Origin: Bradyrhizobium centrolobii
GTDB taxonomy: Bacteria > Pseudomonadota > Alphaproteobacteria > Rhizobiales > Xanthobacteraceae
Assembly: GCF_001641635.1 (NCBI RefSeq)
Contig: NZ_LUUB01000054.1
Span: forward strand, 71,860-135,859
DNA: 64,000 nucleotides
Direction of reading: 5' to 3'
In this document: positions 26,378-42,487 of the stretch, piece by piece
How positions within the stretch are numbered: position 1 is the stretch's first letter
How the letters are laid out: each line of letters begins with the position of its first letter
Made by a program: the position numbers and the translations under genes
The notes under the pieces: model-generated
Databases searched by the model: none
The model's input: the letters and a program-made list of their open reading frames with translations, nothing else
Told to the model about the DNA's origin: nothing

Positions 26378-26464
26378 GGCGGGAGCGTTTGGCAGGGAAA
26401 ATGGGCCTGATCAAGCCTCATTTGGTGATTGCGAAGCCCTCTGACCAGCCCCATATCGGTCTTT

Positions 26465-26531
26465 GGAAGGACGACCTTCCTCTCATCAGGATATCCCGCG
26501 GGGACGACCCTGCCTTGAACGGAGGGTCGTC
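26465..26531 (+). promoter_or_regulatory. Guanidine-II (mini-ykkC) riboswitch ahead of the SMR exporter gene
   Basis: Two hairpins with ACGA tetraloops are present, as the guanidine-II class requires (ACGR loops). P1 is GGAAGG-ACGA-CCTTCC at 26465-26480. P2 is GCGGGG-ACGA-CCCTGC at 26498-26513, one G-U pair. The Shine-Dalgarno GGAGGG is at 26521-26526. The stretch AGGGTCGT (26523-26530) is exactly complementary to ACGACCCT of P2 (26504-26511). So an alternative fold would hide the ribosome site when P2 is not formed. The switch class and its guanidine ligand are established knowledge; the pairing is seen here. Confidence 0.93.
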
Positions 26532-38741: not shown

Positions 38742-38985
38742 GTTGCCCACCGCGCGGCCTGTTTGAACATCCCGGCAATCGCCGGAAACGGGAGACCCGG
38801 ATCCCGGGGCTCGCGCTGGAGAGGCGCGTGCCCAAGCGCGCGGGGCCTGCCGGAGGGAACGAGGCGAAGAGCCGGACACCGATGGCAGAGCGAACCCCAA
38901 AGGGTTCGCAAACTGCGGCGCGTCGAAAGCGCCGCGATAGAATATTCGTAAATCGGTTTGCCGCGATGGTCGCGGCTCAACCGAC
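38742..38985 (+). other. Non-coding, hairpin-rich stretch between the attenuator and the Y-RNA array
   Basis: No supported gene is present in these 244 bp. Several perfect hairpins follow one another: GCGAACCC-CAAA-GGGTTCGC (38890-38909), GCGGCGC/GCGCCGC with a 7-nt loop (38915-38935), and CCGCGA-TGG-TCGCGG (38961-38975) nested in TCGGTT/AACCGA. A TAGAAT hexamer at 38938-38943 could be a -10 element for the first Y-RNA element, but no matching -35 is seen. It may be part of a longer structured RNA. Confidence 0.45.
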
Positions 38986-39163
38986 GCTGGTGGTGAAGAT
39001 GTCGGATACTTCTCCACCACGGCAAAGCGGGTATGCCTCCCGCCTTTGACACACGCACCGGGATGCGGCCTCGGAAAGGGCTTGCACGCGGCCCGGCGCA
39101 GTATCTGTGAGCAAGGACGGATCCTGTGTTGTCGTCACTGAAAGCCGATGTCGCCCGTTCCCC
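38986..39163 (+). ncRNA. Y-RNA-like element A (diverged)
   Basis: It carries the 5' box (TGGTGAAGATG then TCGGATACTTC, 38991-39012) and the 3' box TCGCCCGTTCCCC (39151-39163) shared by the four tandem elements. GAAG and CTTC within the 5' box can pair. A T-arm-like hairpin, GCGGG-TATGCCT-CCCGC, is at 39027-39043, but its loop is not tRNA-like and no D arm follows. The interior is longer than in the other copies. Probably a Ro60-binding RNA without a tRNA-like domain. Confidence 0.65.
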
Positions 39164-39203
39164 AGCGTATCGATCAACGGCCGGTGCGAAAGCTCCGGCC
39201 TGG

Positions 39204-39340
39204 CGGTGGTGAAGATGTCTGTTACTTCGGTTAGAGCGCCGGCCTGGCTTGCCAGGACGGAGGTCGCGGGTTCGTATCCCGCCGGCTGAAATGCCGTAGC
39301 TCAGTCCGCTCAAAGAGCAGAGCAGCGTCGCCCGTTCCCC
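39204..39340 (+). ncRNA. Y-RNA-like element B with permuted tRNA-like domain
   Basis: The 5' box TGGTGAAGATG/TCTGTTACTTC starts at 39207 and the 3' box TCGCCCGTTCCCC is at 39328-39340. In between: hairpin CCTGGC-TT-GCCAGG (39243-39256), T arm GCGGG-TTCGTAT-CCCGC (39266-39282), a short acceptor-like stem CGGC/GCCG closed by TGAAAT (39283-39296), then TA and a D-arm-like GCTC/GAGC stem (39299-39318). The order T arm, acceptor, D arm is circularly permuted relative to tRNA. This matches the tRNA-mimicking Y RNAs known to lie near bacterial Ro60 genes. Confidence 0.82.
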
Positions 39341-39357
39341 GCCAACCCCATCACGGT

Positions 39358-39504
39358 CCGTGGTGAAGATTTCTGTTACTTCGCCTGTCACGCGAGAGGT
39401 CGCGGGTTCGAATCCCGCCCGGTGTTCCATGCACCGGTAGCTCAGAAGTTAGAGCGCTTTCCGGCCAGCTTCGGCTTGCCGGGTCACAGCAATCGCCTGT
39501 TCCC
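39358..39504 (+). ncRNA. Y-RNA-like element C, permuted tRNA(Asp)-like
   Basis: The most complete mimic. After the 5' box (39361-39382) an anticodon-like arm TTCGC-CTGTCAC-GCGAG (39380-39396) carries a GTC anticodon. Next are a 5-nt variable region, T arm GCGGG-TTCGAAT-CCCGC (39402-39418), and acceptor strand CCGGTGT joined by TCCAT to GCACCGG (39419-39437; six Watson-Crick pairs and one G-U). TA and the D arm GCTC-AGAAGTTA-GAGC (39440-39455) follow. A TTCG-capped hairpin is at 39461-39482, and the 3' box TCGCCTGTTCCC at 39493-39504. Loop and linker lengths equal those of real tRNA. Confidence 0.88.
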
Positions 39505-39532
39505 GGATCGTGTCATTCTTGTCCCCCATCGC

Positions 39533-39660
39533 CGGTGGTGAAGAGCGCTGTTACTTCGGATCGCAAGGTCGAAGGTTCGGCTCCTTCCGGACGAAAGTCC
39601 GTAGCTCAGCGGTAGAGCATGTGACGTGCCCGCAAGGGCAGTACAGCCTCGCTTGTTCCC
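39533..39660 (+). ncRNA. Y-RNA-like element D with GAAA-capped acceptor stem
   Basis: The 5' box begins at 39536 (TGGTGAAGAGC then GCTGTTACTTC). T arm GAAGG-TTCGGCT-CCTTC (39571-39587) is followed by an acceptor-like hairpin CGGAC-GAAA-GTCCG (39588-39601), TA, and D arm GCTC-AGCGGTA-GAGC (39604-39618) with the GG typical of D loops. A TGCCC-GCAA-GGGCA hairpin (39627-39640) and the 3' box TCGCTTGTTCCC (39649-39660) close it. It ends 43 bp before the Ro60 gene start, so it may share that gene's leader. Confidence 0.88.
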
Positions 39661-39703
39661 TGGCCCCGGTTTCCATTCCACCATCAACCCAGAGGAGGCC
39701 GTC

Positions 39704-41029
39704 ATGGTCAGGCTCAACAAGATCGTTCGCGCCTTCACGCGTGAGGGCGCACGTGCAACGCGCTTCACGCCCGAGATGGAGCTGAAGCGGGCGCTGATGA
39801 ACTGCCTCCTGTGGGAGGACCAGTTCTACGAGGACGGCGTTTCGATCGCCGACCGCATCAAGGCGCTGGTGTCCAAGGTCGCCCCCGCCCGCGTCGCGCA
39901 ACTCGCGATCGAGGCGCGCGAGGTGATGAAGCTGCGGCACGCACCGCTGCTCGTCATCCGCGAGATGGCGCGCAACGAGAAGCATCGCGCTCTCGTCGCC
40001 GACACGCTCGCCCAGGTGATCCAGCGGCCCGACGAGATGACAGAGCTGCTTGCGATCTACTGGGCGGATGCCCTCGGCCCGATGCAGCAGCGCAAGCGTC
40101 AGCCGGTCTCGGCGCAGGTCAAGAAGGGCCTCGCCCGCGCACTGACCAAGTTCGACGCCTATCAGCTCGCCAAGTACGACCGCGACGGCGCGGTGCGCAT
40201 CCGGGACGTGCTGTTCCTGGTGCACGCCAAGCCGAAGGACGCCGAGCAGGAAAAGGTGTGGAAGCAGCTCGTCGACGGCGAGCTCGCCTCCCCCGACACC
40301 TGGGAGGTTTCGCTCTCGGCCGGAAAGAGCAAGCGCGAGACCTTCGAGCGGCTTATCGCCGAGCGCAAGCTCGGCGGCATGGCGCTCTTGCGCAATCTGC
40401 GGCTGATGCAGAACGCGCAGGTGCCGCGCGAGACCATCGCAGGCACGATCGAGGCGATGCGGACGGATCGTATCCTGCCCTATCGCTTCATCACGGCGGC
40501 GCGCTATGCGCCGGATTTCGAGCCCGAGCTCGAAGGTGCGATGCTGAAGTCGGTCAAGGACCATGTGCGGCTCCCCGGCCGCACACGGCTGCTGATCGAC
40601 GTGTCGGGCTCGATGTTCGCGACCCTCTCCGCGCAGTCGGAAATGACGCGCGCGGAGGCGGCGTGCGGTCTCGCCATCCTGGCACGCGAGATCTGCGACG
40701 AGGTCGAGATCTTCACCTTCAGCAATGAAGTTGTGAAGGTCCCGCCCCGCCGCGGCTTCGCACTGCGGGACGCGATCATCAACTCGCAGCCGCATGGCGG
40801 AACCTATCTCGGCAAGGCCGTCGCCGAGATCGACCGCAAGGGCGACCGCCTGATCGTCTTCACCGACGAGCAGAGCCACGACCAGGTGCCCGAGCCCAGG
40901 GCGCGCGGAACGATGGTGAACGTGGCCTCGTATCAGCACGGTGTCGGCCACGGCGCCTGGACCCGCGTCAACGGCTTCTCTGAAGCCGTGGTCGCGTGGA
41001 TCGCGGCATCGGAGACGGCGCTGAACTGA
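39704..41029 (+). CDS. rsr: TROVE-domain protein, Ro60 orthologue (Rsr)
   Basis: A 441-residue protein: the helical-repeat ring of the TROVE domain (residues about 1-270, VRLNKIVRAFTREGARATRF onward) followed by a von Willebrand A domain. The MIDAS motif is complete: DVSGS near residue 299, the threonine in GGTYLGK, and the aspartate in VFTDEQS. It is somewhat shorter than animal Ro60. The ATG at 39704 follows AGAGGAGG by 6 bp. Ro60 binds Y RNAs and misfolded or damaged RNA. Upstream Y-RNA-like elements and the downstream rtcB gene support an RNA quality-control role. Confidence 0.95.
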   Translation: MVRLNKIVRAFTREGARATRFTPEMELKRALMNCLLWEDQFYEDGVSIADRIKALVSKVAPARVAQLAIEAREVMKLRHAPLLVIREMARNEKHRALVADTLAQVIQRPDEMTELLAIYWADALGPMQQRKRQPVSAQVKKGLARALTKFDAYQLAKYDRDGAVRIRDVLFLVHAKPKDAEQEKVWKQLVDGELASPDTWEVSLSAGKSKRETFERLIAERKLGGMALLRNLRLMQNAQVPRETIAGTIEAMRTDRILPYRFITAARYAPDFEPELEGAMLKSVKDHVRLPGRTRLLIDVSGSMFATLSAQSEMTRAEAACGLAILAREICDEVEIFTFSNEVVKVPPRRGFALRDAIINSQPHGGTYLGKAVAEIDRKGDRLIVFTDEQSHDQVPEPRARGTMVNVASYQHGVGHGAWTRVNGFSEAVVAWIAASETALN

Positions 41030-41075: not shown

Positions 41076-41146
41076 TCCGAAATCTCTGAAATGATCCTCG
41101 TGCCCCGGCTATGATGCGCGCGGGATGTGAAGCAGGAAGCAAAACC

Positions 41147-42487
41147 ATGCGACGATCTGATCCTTACATGGAACGTGCCCGCGAGCTCTGCCTCGCCGCC
41201 GGTGTCGATCCGGATTCGCGCGTCGGCGAAGGACGCGGCCAGCCGGCCTGGTGCCTGTACCGGGACGCGGCGCGCAAGGAGCATCTCGCCCGCGAGGCCA
41301 ATGCGGCCGCGAGCGAGATCGCAAACCTTCGTCCGCAGGAGGCGCGCTTCCAGAACGCGCCGCTGAAGATCTTCGGCGCGCATGACGAGGCGACGGTTAC
41401 GCAGATGCGCAACTGCATGGCGGTCGGCAATGTCGTGTCCGGCGTGATCTGCGCCGACGGCCATCTCGGCTACGCCCAGCCGGTCGGCGGGGTCATCGCC
41501 TACGAGAAGCAGGTCAGCATCTCCGGCGTCGGTTTCGACATCGGCTGCGGCAACATGGCCGCGCGGCTCGACACGCACTTCGACGACATCGCGGGCATCG
41601 TGCCCACGATCATCCGCGACGTCGCCAAGACGATCTCGTTCGGGGTTGGCCGCGCCAATGCCGAGCGGGCCGAGCACGAGCTGTTCGACGACGCAGAAGC
41701 CTGGCGCGAGAGCGACATGGAGGCCTACCGCCAGAAGGCGGTGAGCCAGCTCGGCACGGTCGGGTCCGGCAACCACTATGTCGACCTCATGCGCGACGAG
41801 GAAGGCTTTGTCTGGATCGGCGTCCACTTTGGAAGCCGCGGTCTCGGGCACACCTCCGCGACGCGCTACCTGAAGGCCGCCGGCGGCAAGGACGGCATGA
41901 ACGTCCCGCCCGCCGTGGTCGACGAGGACTCCGAGCTCGGCCGCCGCTACATCGCCGCGATGCATCTCGCCGGGCGCTATGCCTATGCGGGCCGCGAGTG
42001 GGTCGTGGAGCGCGTCCGCCGGATCATCGGCGGCAACGTGACCGAGAGCGTGCACAACCACCACAACTATGCCTGGCGTGAGACCCACGGCGGCAAGGAT
42101 TTGTGGGTGGTGCGCAAGGGCGCGACGCCGGCGTTTCCCGGCCAGAAGGGATTCGTCGGCGGTTCGATGGGCGACGACGCCGTGATCCTCGAGGGCGTCG
42201 ATAGTCCGGAAGCCAAGGCTTCGCTCTACTCGACCGTGCACGGCGCCGGCCGCCTGTTCGGGCGCAAGGAGGCGAAGCGGCGCTTCTCGCGCGCGGAGAT
42301 GGACCGCTGGCTCAACGAGCGCGGCGTCACCTTGATCGGTGCCGACCTCGACGAGAGCCCAATGGCCTATCGCCGCCTGCCCGACGTGCTGGCGCAGCAC
42401 GCCGGCACCGTGCGGGTCTTGCACACGCTGCGGCCGTTCGCCGTCGCCATGGCCGGCGAAGGCGAATTCGATCCGTGGAAGGACTAA
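41147..42487 (+). CDS. rtcB: RtcB-family RNA ligase
   Basis: A 446-residue GTP- and Mn-dependent ligase that seals 2',3'-cyclic phosphate or 3'-phosphate ends to 5'-OH RNA ends. Metal and active-site motifs are intact: the cysteine in GFDIGCGNMA, histidines in GSGNHYVDL and VHFGSRGLGH, ESVHNHHNYA, and the guanylated histidine in STVHGAGR. I choose the ATG at 41147 after AGGAAG. No rtcA, archease or rtcR gene lies in the window. Position 117 bp after rsr implies a shared operon. Confidence 0.96.
   Translation: MRRSDPYMERARELCLAAGVDPDSRVGEGRGQPAWCLYRDAARKEHLAREANAAASEIANLRPQEARFQNAPLKIFGAHDEATVTQMRNCMAVGNVVSGVICADGHLGYAQPVGGVIAYEKQVSISGVGFDIGCGNMAARLDTHFDDIAGIVPTIIRDVAKTISFGVGRANAERAEHELFDDAEAWRESDMEAYRQKAVSQLGTVGSGNHYVDLMRDEEGFVWIGVHFGSRGLGHTSATRYLKAAGGKDGMNVPPAVVDEDSELGRRYIAAMHLAGRYAYAGREWVVERVRRIIGGNVTESVHNHHNYAWRETHGGKDLWVVRKGATPAFPGQKGFVGGSMGDDAVILEGVDSPEAKASLYSTVHGAGRLFGRKEAKRRFSRAEMDRWLNERGVTLIGADLDESPMAYRRLPDVLAQHAGTVRVLHTLRPFAVAMAGEGEFDPWKD

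Follow-up and report, generated by a model that had tools for sequence, protein, structure and literature searches.

In a window of 64,000 nucleotides from Bradyrhizobium centrolobii (contig NZ_LUUB01000054.1, positions 71,860 to 135,859), four Y-RNA-like elements, A to D, were found in tandem at about 38983-39668, directly 5′ of the Ro60-family gene rsr. In three of the four, the effector module of the putative Ro60-binding RNA reads as a circularly permuted tRNA, and the permutation point appears to differ in each, with D opened at the anticodon loop, B at the D loop and C between positions 26 and 27. The C-type body would show an anticodon arm whose triplet changes fast among relatives while the frame of the anticodon loop stays. 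We propose that the C-type RNAs of this array act as decoys or sacrificial substrates for anticodon-cutting nucleases, with resealing by RtcB where it is present, and we place the probability of this reading at about 0.45.

The elements, their parts and the genes rsr and rtcB lie on the + strand, and the ends of the elements are approximate. Element A (38983..39177), a Y-RNA-like gene recognized by its shared ends, relatives and fold, carries the 5′ sequence GGTGGTGAAG at 38989 and the 3′ sequence CGCCCGTTCCC at 39152; a permuted tRNA module was not found in it by the parser. Elements B (39201..39346), C (39354..39509) and D (39530..39668) come after it, and rsr, which encodes a Ro60/TROVE protein (39704..41029; PF05731, E 4.7e-15), is followed by the RNA ligase gene rtcB (41111..42487; PF01139, E 2e-65). 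A Ro60 ortholog close to the elements is what is expected of bacterial Y RNAs. The original prediction had described B, C and D only; its modules are real, but the elements reach past the ends that it gave them, and A lies upstream as a fourth member. The 5′ end GGTGGTGAAG is common to A-D, with one mismatch in C, and so is the 3′ end CGCC[CT]GTTCCC, with at most one mismatch. Among 299 such elements, the longest Watson-Crick run of the terminal stem averages 5.9 with an element's own partner and 3.8 with swapped partners, a comparison that is favoured because the 3′ end had been picked with pairing in view; in the window this run is 7 in A, 6 in B, 4 in C and 4 in D. Scans for a sigma-54-like site and for a sigma-70-like consensus gave promoter matches no more often than chance. 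Elsewhere in the window, a guanidine-II riboswitch is predicted at 26463-26512 (RF01068, 35.3 bits, above the gathering score).

Relatives of the array were collected by scanning genome contigs with Rsr, and 80 of the 106 loci found were kept. These come mostly from Bradyrhizobium, then from Hyphomonadaceae and other Alphaproteobacteria, with three labelled Acidobacteriota; the closest named loci to the window's array are from Bradyrhizobium. Including the window there are 81 sources, in which 299 elements have the shared ends; each source has one to seven (some contigs are cut), and 51 of the 81 have four. A T-acceptor-D arrangement was parsed in 148 of the 299 (B-type in 12, C-type in 75 and, in the other 61, mostly D-like), which leaves about half uncounted, including shorter Y RNAs and, as judged by eye, some B copies with unusual T loops such as those of L014. 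Elements were classed as B-type by a D strand upstream with none at the normal spacing downstream, no element having both, and as C-type by the presence, next to the TTC anchor, of a hairpin whose loop has 7 nt. TROVE itself was detected in 6 of 398 Pseudomonadota genomes at E 1e-5. R1, a covariance model built from C, had matches in 361 of these 398 genomes and was dropped as a map of distribution because many of the matched spans resemble junctions of tandem tRNA genes. By eye, a different conserved module, of the approximate form GTACCGTGGA ... GTGACGCGGG enclosing a hairpin, recurs in the second elements of L061, L066, L073, L078 and L040 and in the first element of L050; it could be a kink-turn.

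In B, C and D alike, a T arm is followed by a closed acceptor-like hairpin, then by TA and the 5′ strand of the D arm, the order that had been predicted; this order is real and beyond chance, and the hairpin loops TGAAAT (B), TCCAT (C) and GAAA (D) are exactly those claimed. The accompanying YrlA-type interpretation is partly supported. Kinship with YrlA holds, as indicated by the adjoining rsr, the shared terminal stem, the published account of permutation (PMC11472068, excerpt) and matches to the Rfam YrlA model RF02553 with C (39.3 bits, E 7.5e-7), D (35.5 bits, E 9.3e-6) and B (24.9 bits, E 0.011), none of which reaches the gathering score of 69 bits. All three contain the T arm, closed acceptor hairpin and D strand in that order, as does RF02553. 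The further claim, that each module is opened at the anticodon toward the Ro-binding end, fits D only; the opening appears to lie in the D loop in B and between 26 and 27 in C.

Element D is permuted in the manner canonical for YrlA, with its opening at the anticodon loop. Its module (39571..39619) consists of a T arm (39571-39587), a hairpin with a GAAA loop (39588-39601), TA (39602-39603) and a D arm, and the match to the YrlA model runs from 39544 to 39648 over model positions 1-114. The strand TCGCA (39561..39565), read from the sequence by comparison with the YrlA alignment as the 3′ strand of the anticodon stem, can pair with TGTGA at 39620-39624. The stem strands of a YrlA-style opening at the anticodon loop run into the Ro stem, an arrangement that fits D and does not fit B. 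ARAGORN calls a tRNA-Arg(tcg) at 39529-39595 of the window, over the 5′ part of D, apparently by mistaking a Y RNA for a tRNA.

The reading that suits element B best is a tRNA-like module of four arms with its opening in the D loop. Its 5′ end is the 3′ part of the D loop and D stem (GGTTA GAGC, then G26; 39229..39238), followed by the anticodon arm as a long hairpin with a CTTG loop in place of a 7-nt anticodon loop (39239..39260), the T arm (39266..39282), the closed acceptor hairpin CGGC-TGAAAT-GCCG (39283..39296) and a segment (39297..39306) of T8 A9 (39297-39298), the D stem 5′ strand GCTC and the D-loop start AGTC. GAGC at 39234-39237 pairs with GCTC at 39299-39302, and GGTTA GAGC before the anticodon arm forms a normal D arm when joined to GCTC AGTC after the acceptor. 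The 5′ strand of the D arm had been identified correctly in the original prediction, but its partner had been taken to be a local downstream GAGC, and the stem pairs better with the GAGC at the module's 5′ end. A downstream GAGC occurs within 40 nt in 6 of the 12 B elements, the window's included, with a loop of 12-15 nt, which rules out the absence of a second D-strand partner as a general B trait. Since the other 6 lack a downstream GAGC, the upstream GAGC is the partner common to all B-type elements; a full D partner at normal D-loop spacing downstream is present in 0 of the 12 with the upstream strand.

The four-arm structure of B was examined in an alignment of 14 sequences (11 of the 12 B-type elements, without L055, plus L038, L041 and L075). 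In this alignment 89.8% of cells are paired, and all five structure measures exceed those of all 500 shuffles; double changes occur in 10 pairs, as compared with a shuffle mean of 3.7 (0/500 as high) and 2-6 when the structure was slid. The anticodon-arm hairpin (helix 2) has changes on both sides in 5 of 9 pairs with 76.5% of cells paired, and the D stem is nearly invariant, its outer pair being non-standard in 3 of 14 sequences. The minimum-energy fold of the window's B contains the same four arms. In whole-element energy folding neither B nor D is remarkable, with 35/200 and 30/200 shuffles, respectively, as stable. After rotation, ARAGORN called a tRNA in 3 of 12 B-type elements, the window's not among them; these calls are few because the anticodon arm of B is a longer hairpin. 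On the acidobacterial contig L082, a B-type element stands beside a permuted element of another type. In L031 and L050 the second element, a Y RNA at the place of B, has shrunk to a short hairpin and has no tRNA module.

Element C presents the positions of a tRNA in the order 27-76 first, then 1-26. An anticodon arm, TTCGC-CTGTCAC-GCGAG with anticodon GTC (39380..39396), is followed by the 5-nt variable loop AGGTC (39397-39401), the T arm (39402..39418), a 7-bp acceptor hairpin (39419..39437) with a loop of T73-CCA (39426-39429) plus one T, and a last segment (39438..39456) of T8 A9 (39438-39439), the D arm GCTC-AGAAGTTA-GAGC and G26. The T arm, acceptor hairpin and D arm had all been noted before; the anticodon arm at 39380-39396 had been missed. 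When rotated, the window's C is a 76-nt tRNA-Asp(GUC) with CCA as called by ARAGORN, and its anticodon loop is identical to that of the tRNA-Asp of the same genome. The same program called a tRNA in 73 of the 75 C-type elements after rotation, in 21 of 75 without rotation and in 0 of 1,500 dinucleotide shuffles; the two without a call are two doubtful elements, in L047 and L067.

So complete a tRNA raises the alternative that C is a permuted gene for a working tRNA, joined at 26/27 by RtcB and opened in the acceptor loop at UCCA/U/G. The position of rtcB, adjoining rsr downstream of the array, is in keeping with this alternative, as is an archaeal precedent for a permuted gene of this form (PMC3978253, excerpt). 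Against it, close relatives differ in the anticodon on a body that hardly changes, and 32 of 68 elements have no NCCA. The GG typical of D loops is absent from the window's copy, rtcB is not present at many of the related loci, and tRNA genes of the ordinary kind, including one for tRNA-Asp(GUC), exist in the genome. We consider a role as a working tRNA very unlikely.

To evaluate the cloverleaf of C, 37 chosen C sequences were aligned in a single register. Of their cells, 98.3% are paired, and double changes fill 47 cells, as compared with a shuffle mean of 14.4 (0/500 as high) and at most 8 when slid; cells paired, double-change cells and covariation score all lie above all 500 shuffles. The number of pairs with double changes (5 versus 3.5 in shuffles, reached by 41/500) and the number of further pair types (11 versus 10.6, reached by 266/500) did not stand out. 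The 31-39 pair is A-U in 15 sequences, C-G in 14 and U-A in 8, with 22 double changes among the 37. In whole-element energy folding only 1 of 200 shuffles was as stable as the window's C, in whose minimum-energy fold the anticodon hairpin is absent and another hairpin takes its place. The probability of the anticodon closing pair exceeds 0.5 in 17/71 bacterial and 7/44 viral elements as compared with 45/60 real tRNAs; the predicted anticodon hairpin rests on comparison and is weak by energy. Taken as a whole, the C-type body as a complete cloverleaf, opened between 26 and 27, is well supported by the alignment.

Selection had originally been predicted to act on shape, with arms kept and loops free to differ. 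Compensatory changes bear this out for the arms, but not all loops are free: in C-type elements the frame of the anticodon loop is mostly kept, and the acceptor loop begins with NCCA, at positions 73-76, in 36 of the 68 elements with a 7-bp acceptor and in 12 of 35 distinct 7-bp hairpins. At the other listed offsets of these hairpins, CCA occurs once in total. The NCCA remnant within the acceptor loop suggests that the permuted module originated where two tRNA genes adjoined, and a duplication model for the origin of permuted tRNA genes exists (PMC3978253, excerpt). Another possibility is that the array is decaying, functionless debris of tandem tRNA genes, and the many places in other genomes that match the C model and resemble tandem tRNA-gene junctions speak for it. 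Its Y ends and array order are common to many relatives and its arms bear compensatory changes; the covariation already contradicts debris, a reading to which we give almost no credence. Some permuted modules in L067, L201, L203, L204 and L205 have Leu-like D strands, such as TGGCGGAA..GGTAGACGC, and L201 has an extra arm-like stretch ahead of the T arm; these Leu-like modules look as if made from class II tRNAs.

The anticodon loop of C-type elements combines a kept frame with a variable triplet. U33 is present in 69, R37 in 73 and Y32 in 73 of the 75 elements, which carry 22 triplets; the 7-nt length of the loop is given by construction because it is part of the definition of C-type. In 45 elements with the AGAGGTCGCGGG motif, nearly all from Bradyrhizobium, entropy is 1.41, 1.55 and 1.91 bits at positions 34, 35 and 36 and 0 at position 33. 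Nine of the 33 distinct bacterial loops are equal to one of the 47 real anticodon loops of the window's genome and 24 have no exact copy there; column shuffles gave a mean of 3.1 matches, with 1 of 2,000 as high as 9. When viral loops were added, 14 of 58 equalled a real loop (column shuffles: mean 4.6, 0/5,000 as high). The triplet ATC, found in 11 of 75 C-type elements, is absent among the anticodons of the tRNAs called in the window's genome. A variable triplet in a kept frame, on a Y RNA beside rsr, would also be expected of a guide, in which the 7-nt loop would choose the substrates of Rsr by pairing with target RNAs. These loops obey the rules of tRNA and equal real anticodon loops more often than expected by chance, which argues against a guide, and we regard such a role as improbable.

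The rate of change was estimated by parsimony on an rsr tree of 43 taxa. Positions 34, 35 and 36 require 11, 13 and 13 steps, and the triplet as a single character requires 17 changes among 10 states; this tree is from rsr only, and steps could be added where strains have exchanged arrays. The 65 other C columns average 0.88 steps, a mean that excludes columns 31, 38 and 39 (8 steps each) and rises to about 1.06 once columns 42-53 are omitted. The 43 of 75 elements in the tree set share one register and a 19-nt acceptor region and have the AGAGGTCGCGGG motif or are from L018 or L041, without L050 and L051, and columns 42-53 are conserved partly by this selection of elements. Third codon positions of rsr average 3.8 steps, and 3.5% of them reach the anticodon rate of 12.3. 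Columns 73-76 are also fast, with 7-9 steps.

These rates bear on a further alternative, that the array functions as ordinary YrlA, in which the tRNA-like module would link Rsr with an effector, for example PNPase, and the anticodon arm of C would be a tolerated tRNA leftover whose triplet drifts freely. A tether of this kind, with Y RNA joining Rsr to PNPase, is described in the RYPER model (PMC8394870, excerpt). D keeps the canonical form, the remnant-like acceptor loop is fast as well, and the anticodon hairpin of C is weak by energy. A free leftover needs neither the mostly kept U33, Y32 and R37 nor the 22 double changes at 31-39; the triplet of C changes at a higher rate than third codon positions of rsr do on average, and the same arrangement recurs in phages. 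We regard ordinary YrlA function as possible, if somewhat doubtful.

Rsr relatives were identified in 90 of 50,697 phage records, and searches of viral contigs returned 19, 32, 75 and 5 loci, with contigs shared between searches. Loci L180-L317, among them a Deinococcus plasmid, yielded 84 distinct permuted cores, of which 44 have an anticodon hairpin; the 84 may include genuine tandem tRNA genes, and a few of the 44 look doubtful (e.g. L265, L294 and L317). The anticodon loops have U33 in 38/44 and R37 in 39/44, and 41 of the 44 C cores were called tRNA after rotation, as compared with 0 of 880 mononucleotide shuffles. In three phages with more distant TROVE genes, crAss001 (L321), cr106_1 (L322) and Vibrio phage pv27 (L323), no permuted core was parsed in the stretch fetched. 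The tRNA-Ser of Kikimora (L200:2266-2340), the tRNA-Thr of 10KY502B (L202:2259-2326) and the tRNA-Gln of CcrColossus (L204:1628-1695) annotated in GenBank overlap C cores; tRNA annotations beside phage TROVE genes can be Y RNAs.

Comparison of related phages gave both changed and unchanged loops. L181 and L182, with about 90% identical DNA, have the anticodon loops CTGTTAA and CTGTGGA, while their 20-nt 5′ flank and the stretch of variable loop plus T are identical; two one-sided changes in the acceptor hairpins keep the pairing. The loops of CcrPW (L203) and CcrColossus (L204), 92% identical in DNA, are ATTAGGA and ATCTGGA with an equally identical compared stretch and further changes in a long acceptor loop. 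The anticodon loop is unchanged, CTGCTAA in both, between Kikimora and Gurke (97%), the permuted core is unchanged between Bambus and Marchewka (99%), and Xanthomonas phage Olaya lacks the C core present in 10KY502B. Such a difference between related phages, confined to the anticodon loop of a stretch that is identical elsewhere, suggests anticodon nucleases as partners, and the question of the partner can be reduced to an exchange of three bases.

A fast-changing displayed anticodon fits a nuclease lure better than a plain tether. From the arms, permutation points, NCCA remnant, variability and phage presence, all established by sequence comparison, we infer a mechanism in which the array would be expressed and Rsr would hold the shared terminal stem. 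The tRNA-like body would thereby be displayed to tRNA-recognizing enzymes, the C-type RNAs would lure nucleases that cut tRNA anticodon loops, and RtcB, where present, would reseal the cut RNAs. The broader picture, in which bacteria and phages alike mount on Ro60 decoys that are whole permuted tRNAs, built from tRNA genes in at least three permutations and driven to fast anticodon change by an arms race with anticodon nucleases, is put forward a shade more tentatively still. Several points count against a decoy: the hairpin is weak by energy, the closest phage pairs are unchanged, columns 31, 38, 39 and 73-76 are fast as well, and many loops are not exact copies of real loops. A further point is that rtcB is often absent, being found within the flank in 40/80 relatives, 1/130 viral loci and 0/13 named phage loci, counts that apply to flanks of 2-3.5 kb, some of them cut, and to viral contigs that are partly repeated. 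In Salmonella, anticodon cleavage accompanies expression of the operon, competitive inhibition is listed among the possibilities by Hughes et al., and YrlA is uncut by the nuclease (PMC7790460, excerpt), which counts against a decoy, although this YrlA is described with D, T and acceptor arms only (PMC8394870, excerpt).

Several Y RNAs per species are already known. In the literature searched, no Y RNA with an opening in the D loop or with an anticodon was found described, and an earlier description is possible. Like YrlA (RF02553; Salmonella YrlA, PDB 6CU1), the elements stand beside Ro60/Rsr and combine a terminal stem with permuted T, acceptor and D arms, and element D matches the RF02553 model end to end. 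A bacterial Y RNA superposes on tRNA with circular permutation (PMC11472068, excerpt), YrlA is modified by DusA and TruB (PMC8394870, excerpt), and phages are stated to carry YrlA (PMC7765460, excerpt). Unlike YrlA, the present array has four tandem copies, the openings of B and C appear to lie in the D loop and at 26/27, respectively, and element C retains an anticodon arm and NCCA. By comparison, the anticodon arm of Bradyrhizobium-type C would form a hairpin instead of an extension of the Ro stem; some Hyphomonadaceae copies, as judged by eye, could form both the hairpin and the continuation. As in the RNA repair operon rsr-yrlBA-rtcBA of Salmonella (PMC7790460, excerpt), Rsr, Y RNAs and RtcB occur together, but the Y RNAs are here 5′ of rsr; the two flanking genes tested (DUF429 and beta-lactamase family) are neither rtcA nor rtcR. 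As in the circularly permuted tRNA genes of algae and archaea (Thermofilum pendens), the 3′ half precedes the 5′ half, and one archaeal gene likewise has an encoded CCA and a one-nucleotide intervening sequence (PMC3978253, excerpt). Unlike those genes, C sits inside a Y RNA beside rsr with a variable triplet, and it is not expected to serve translation.
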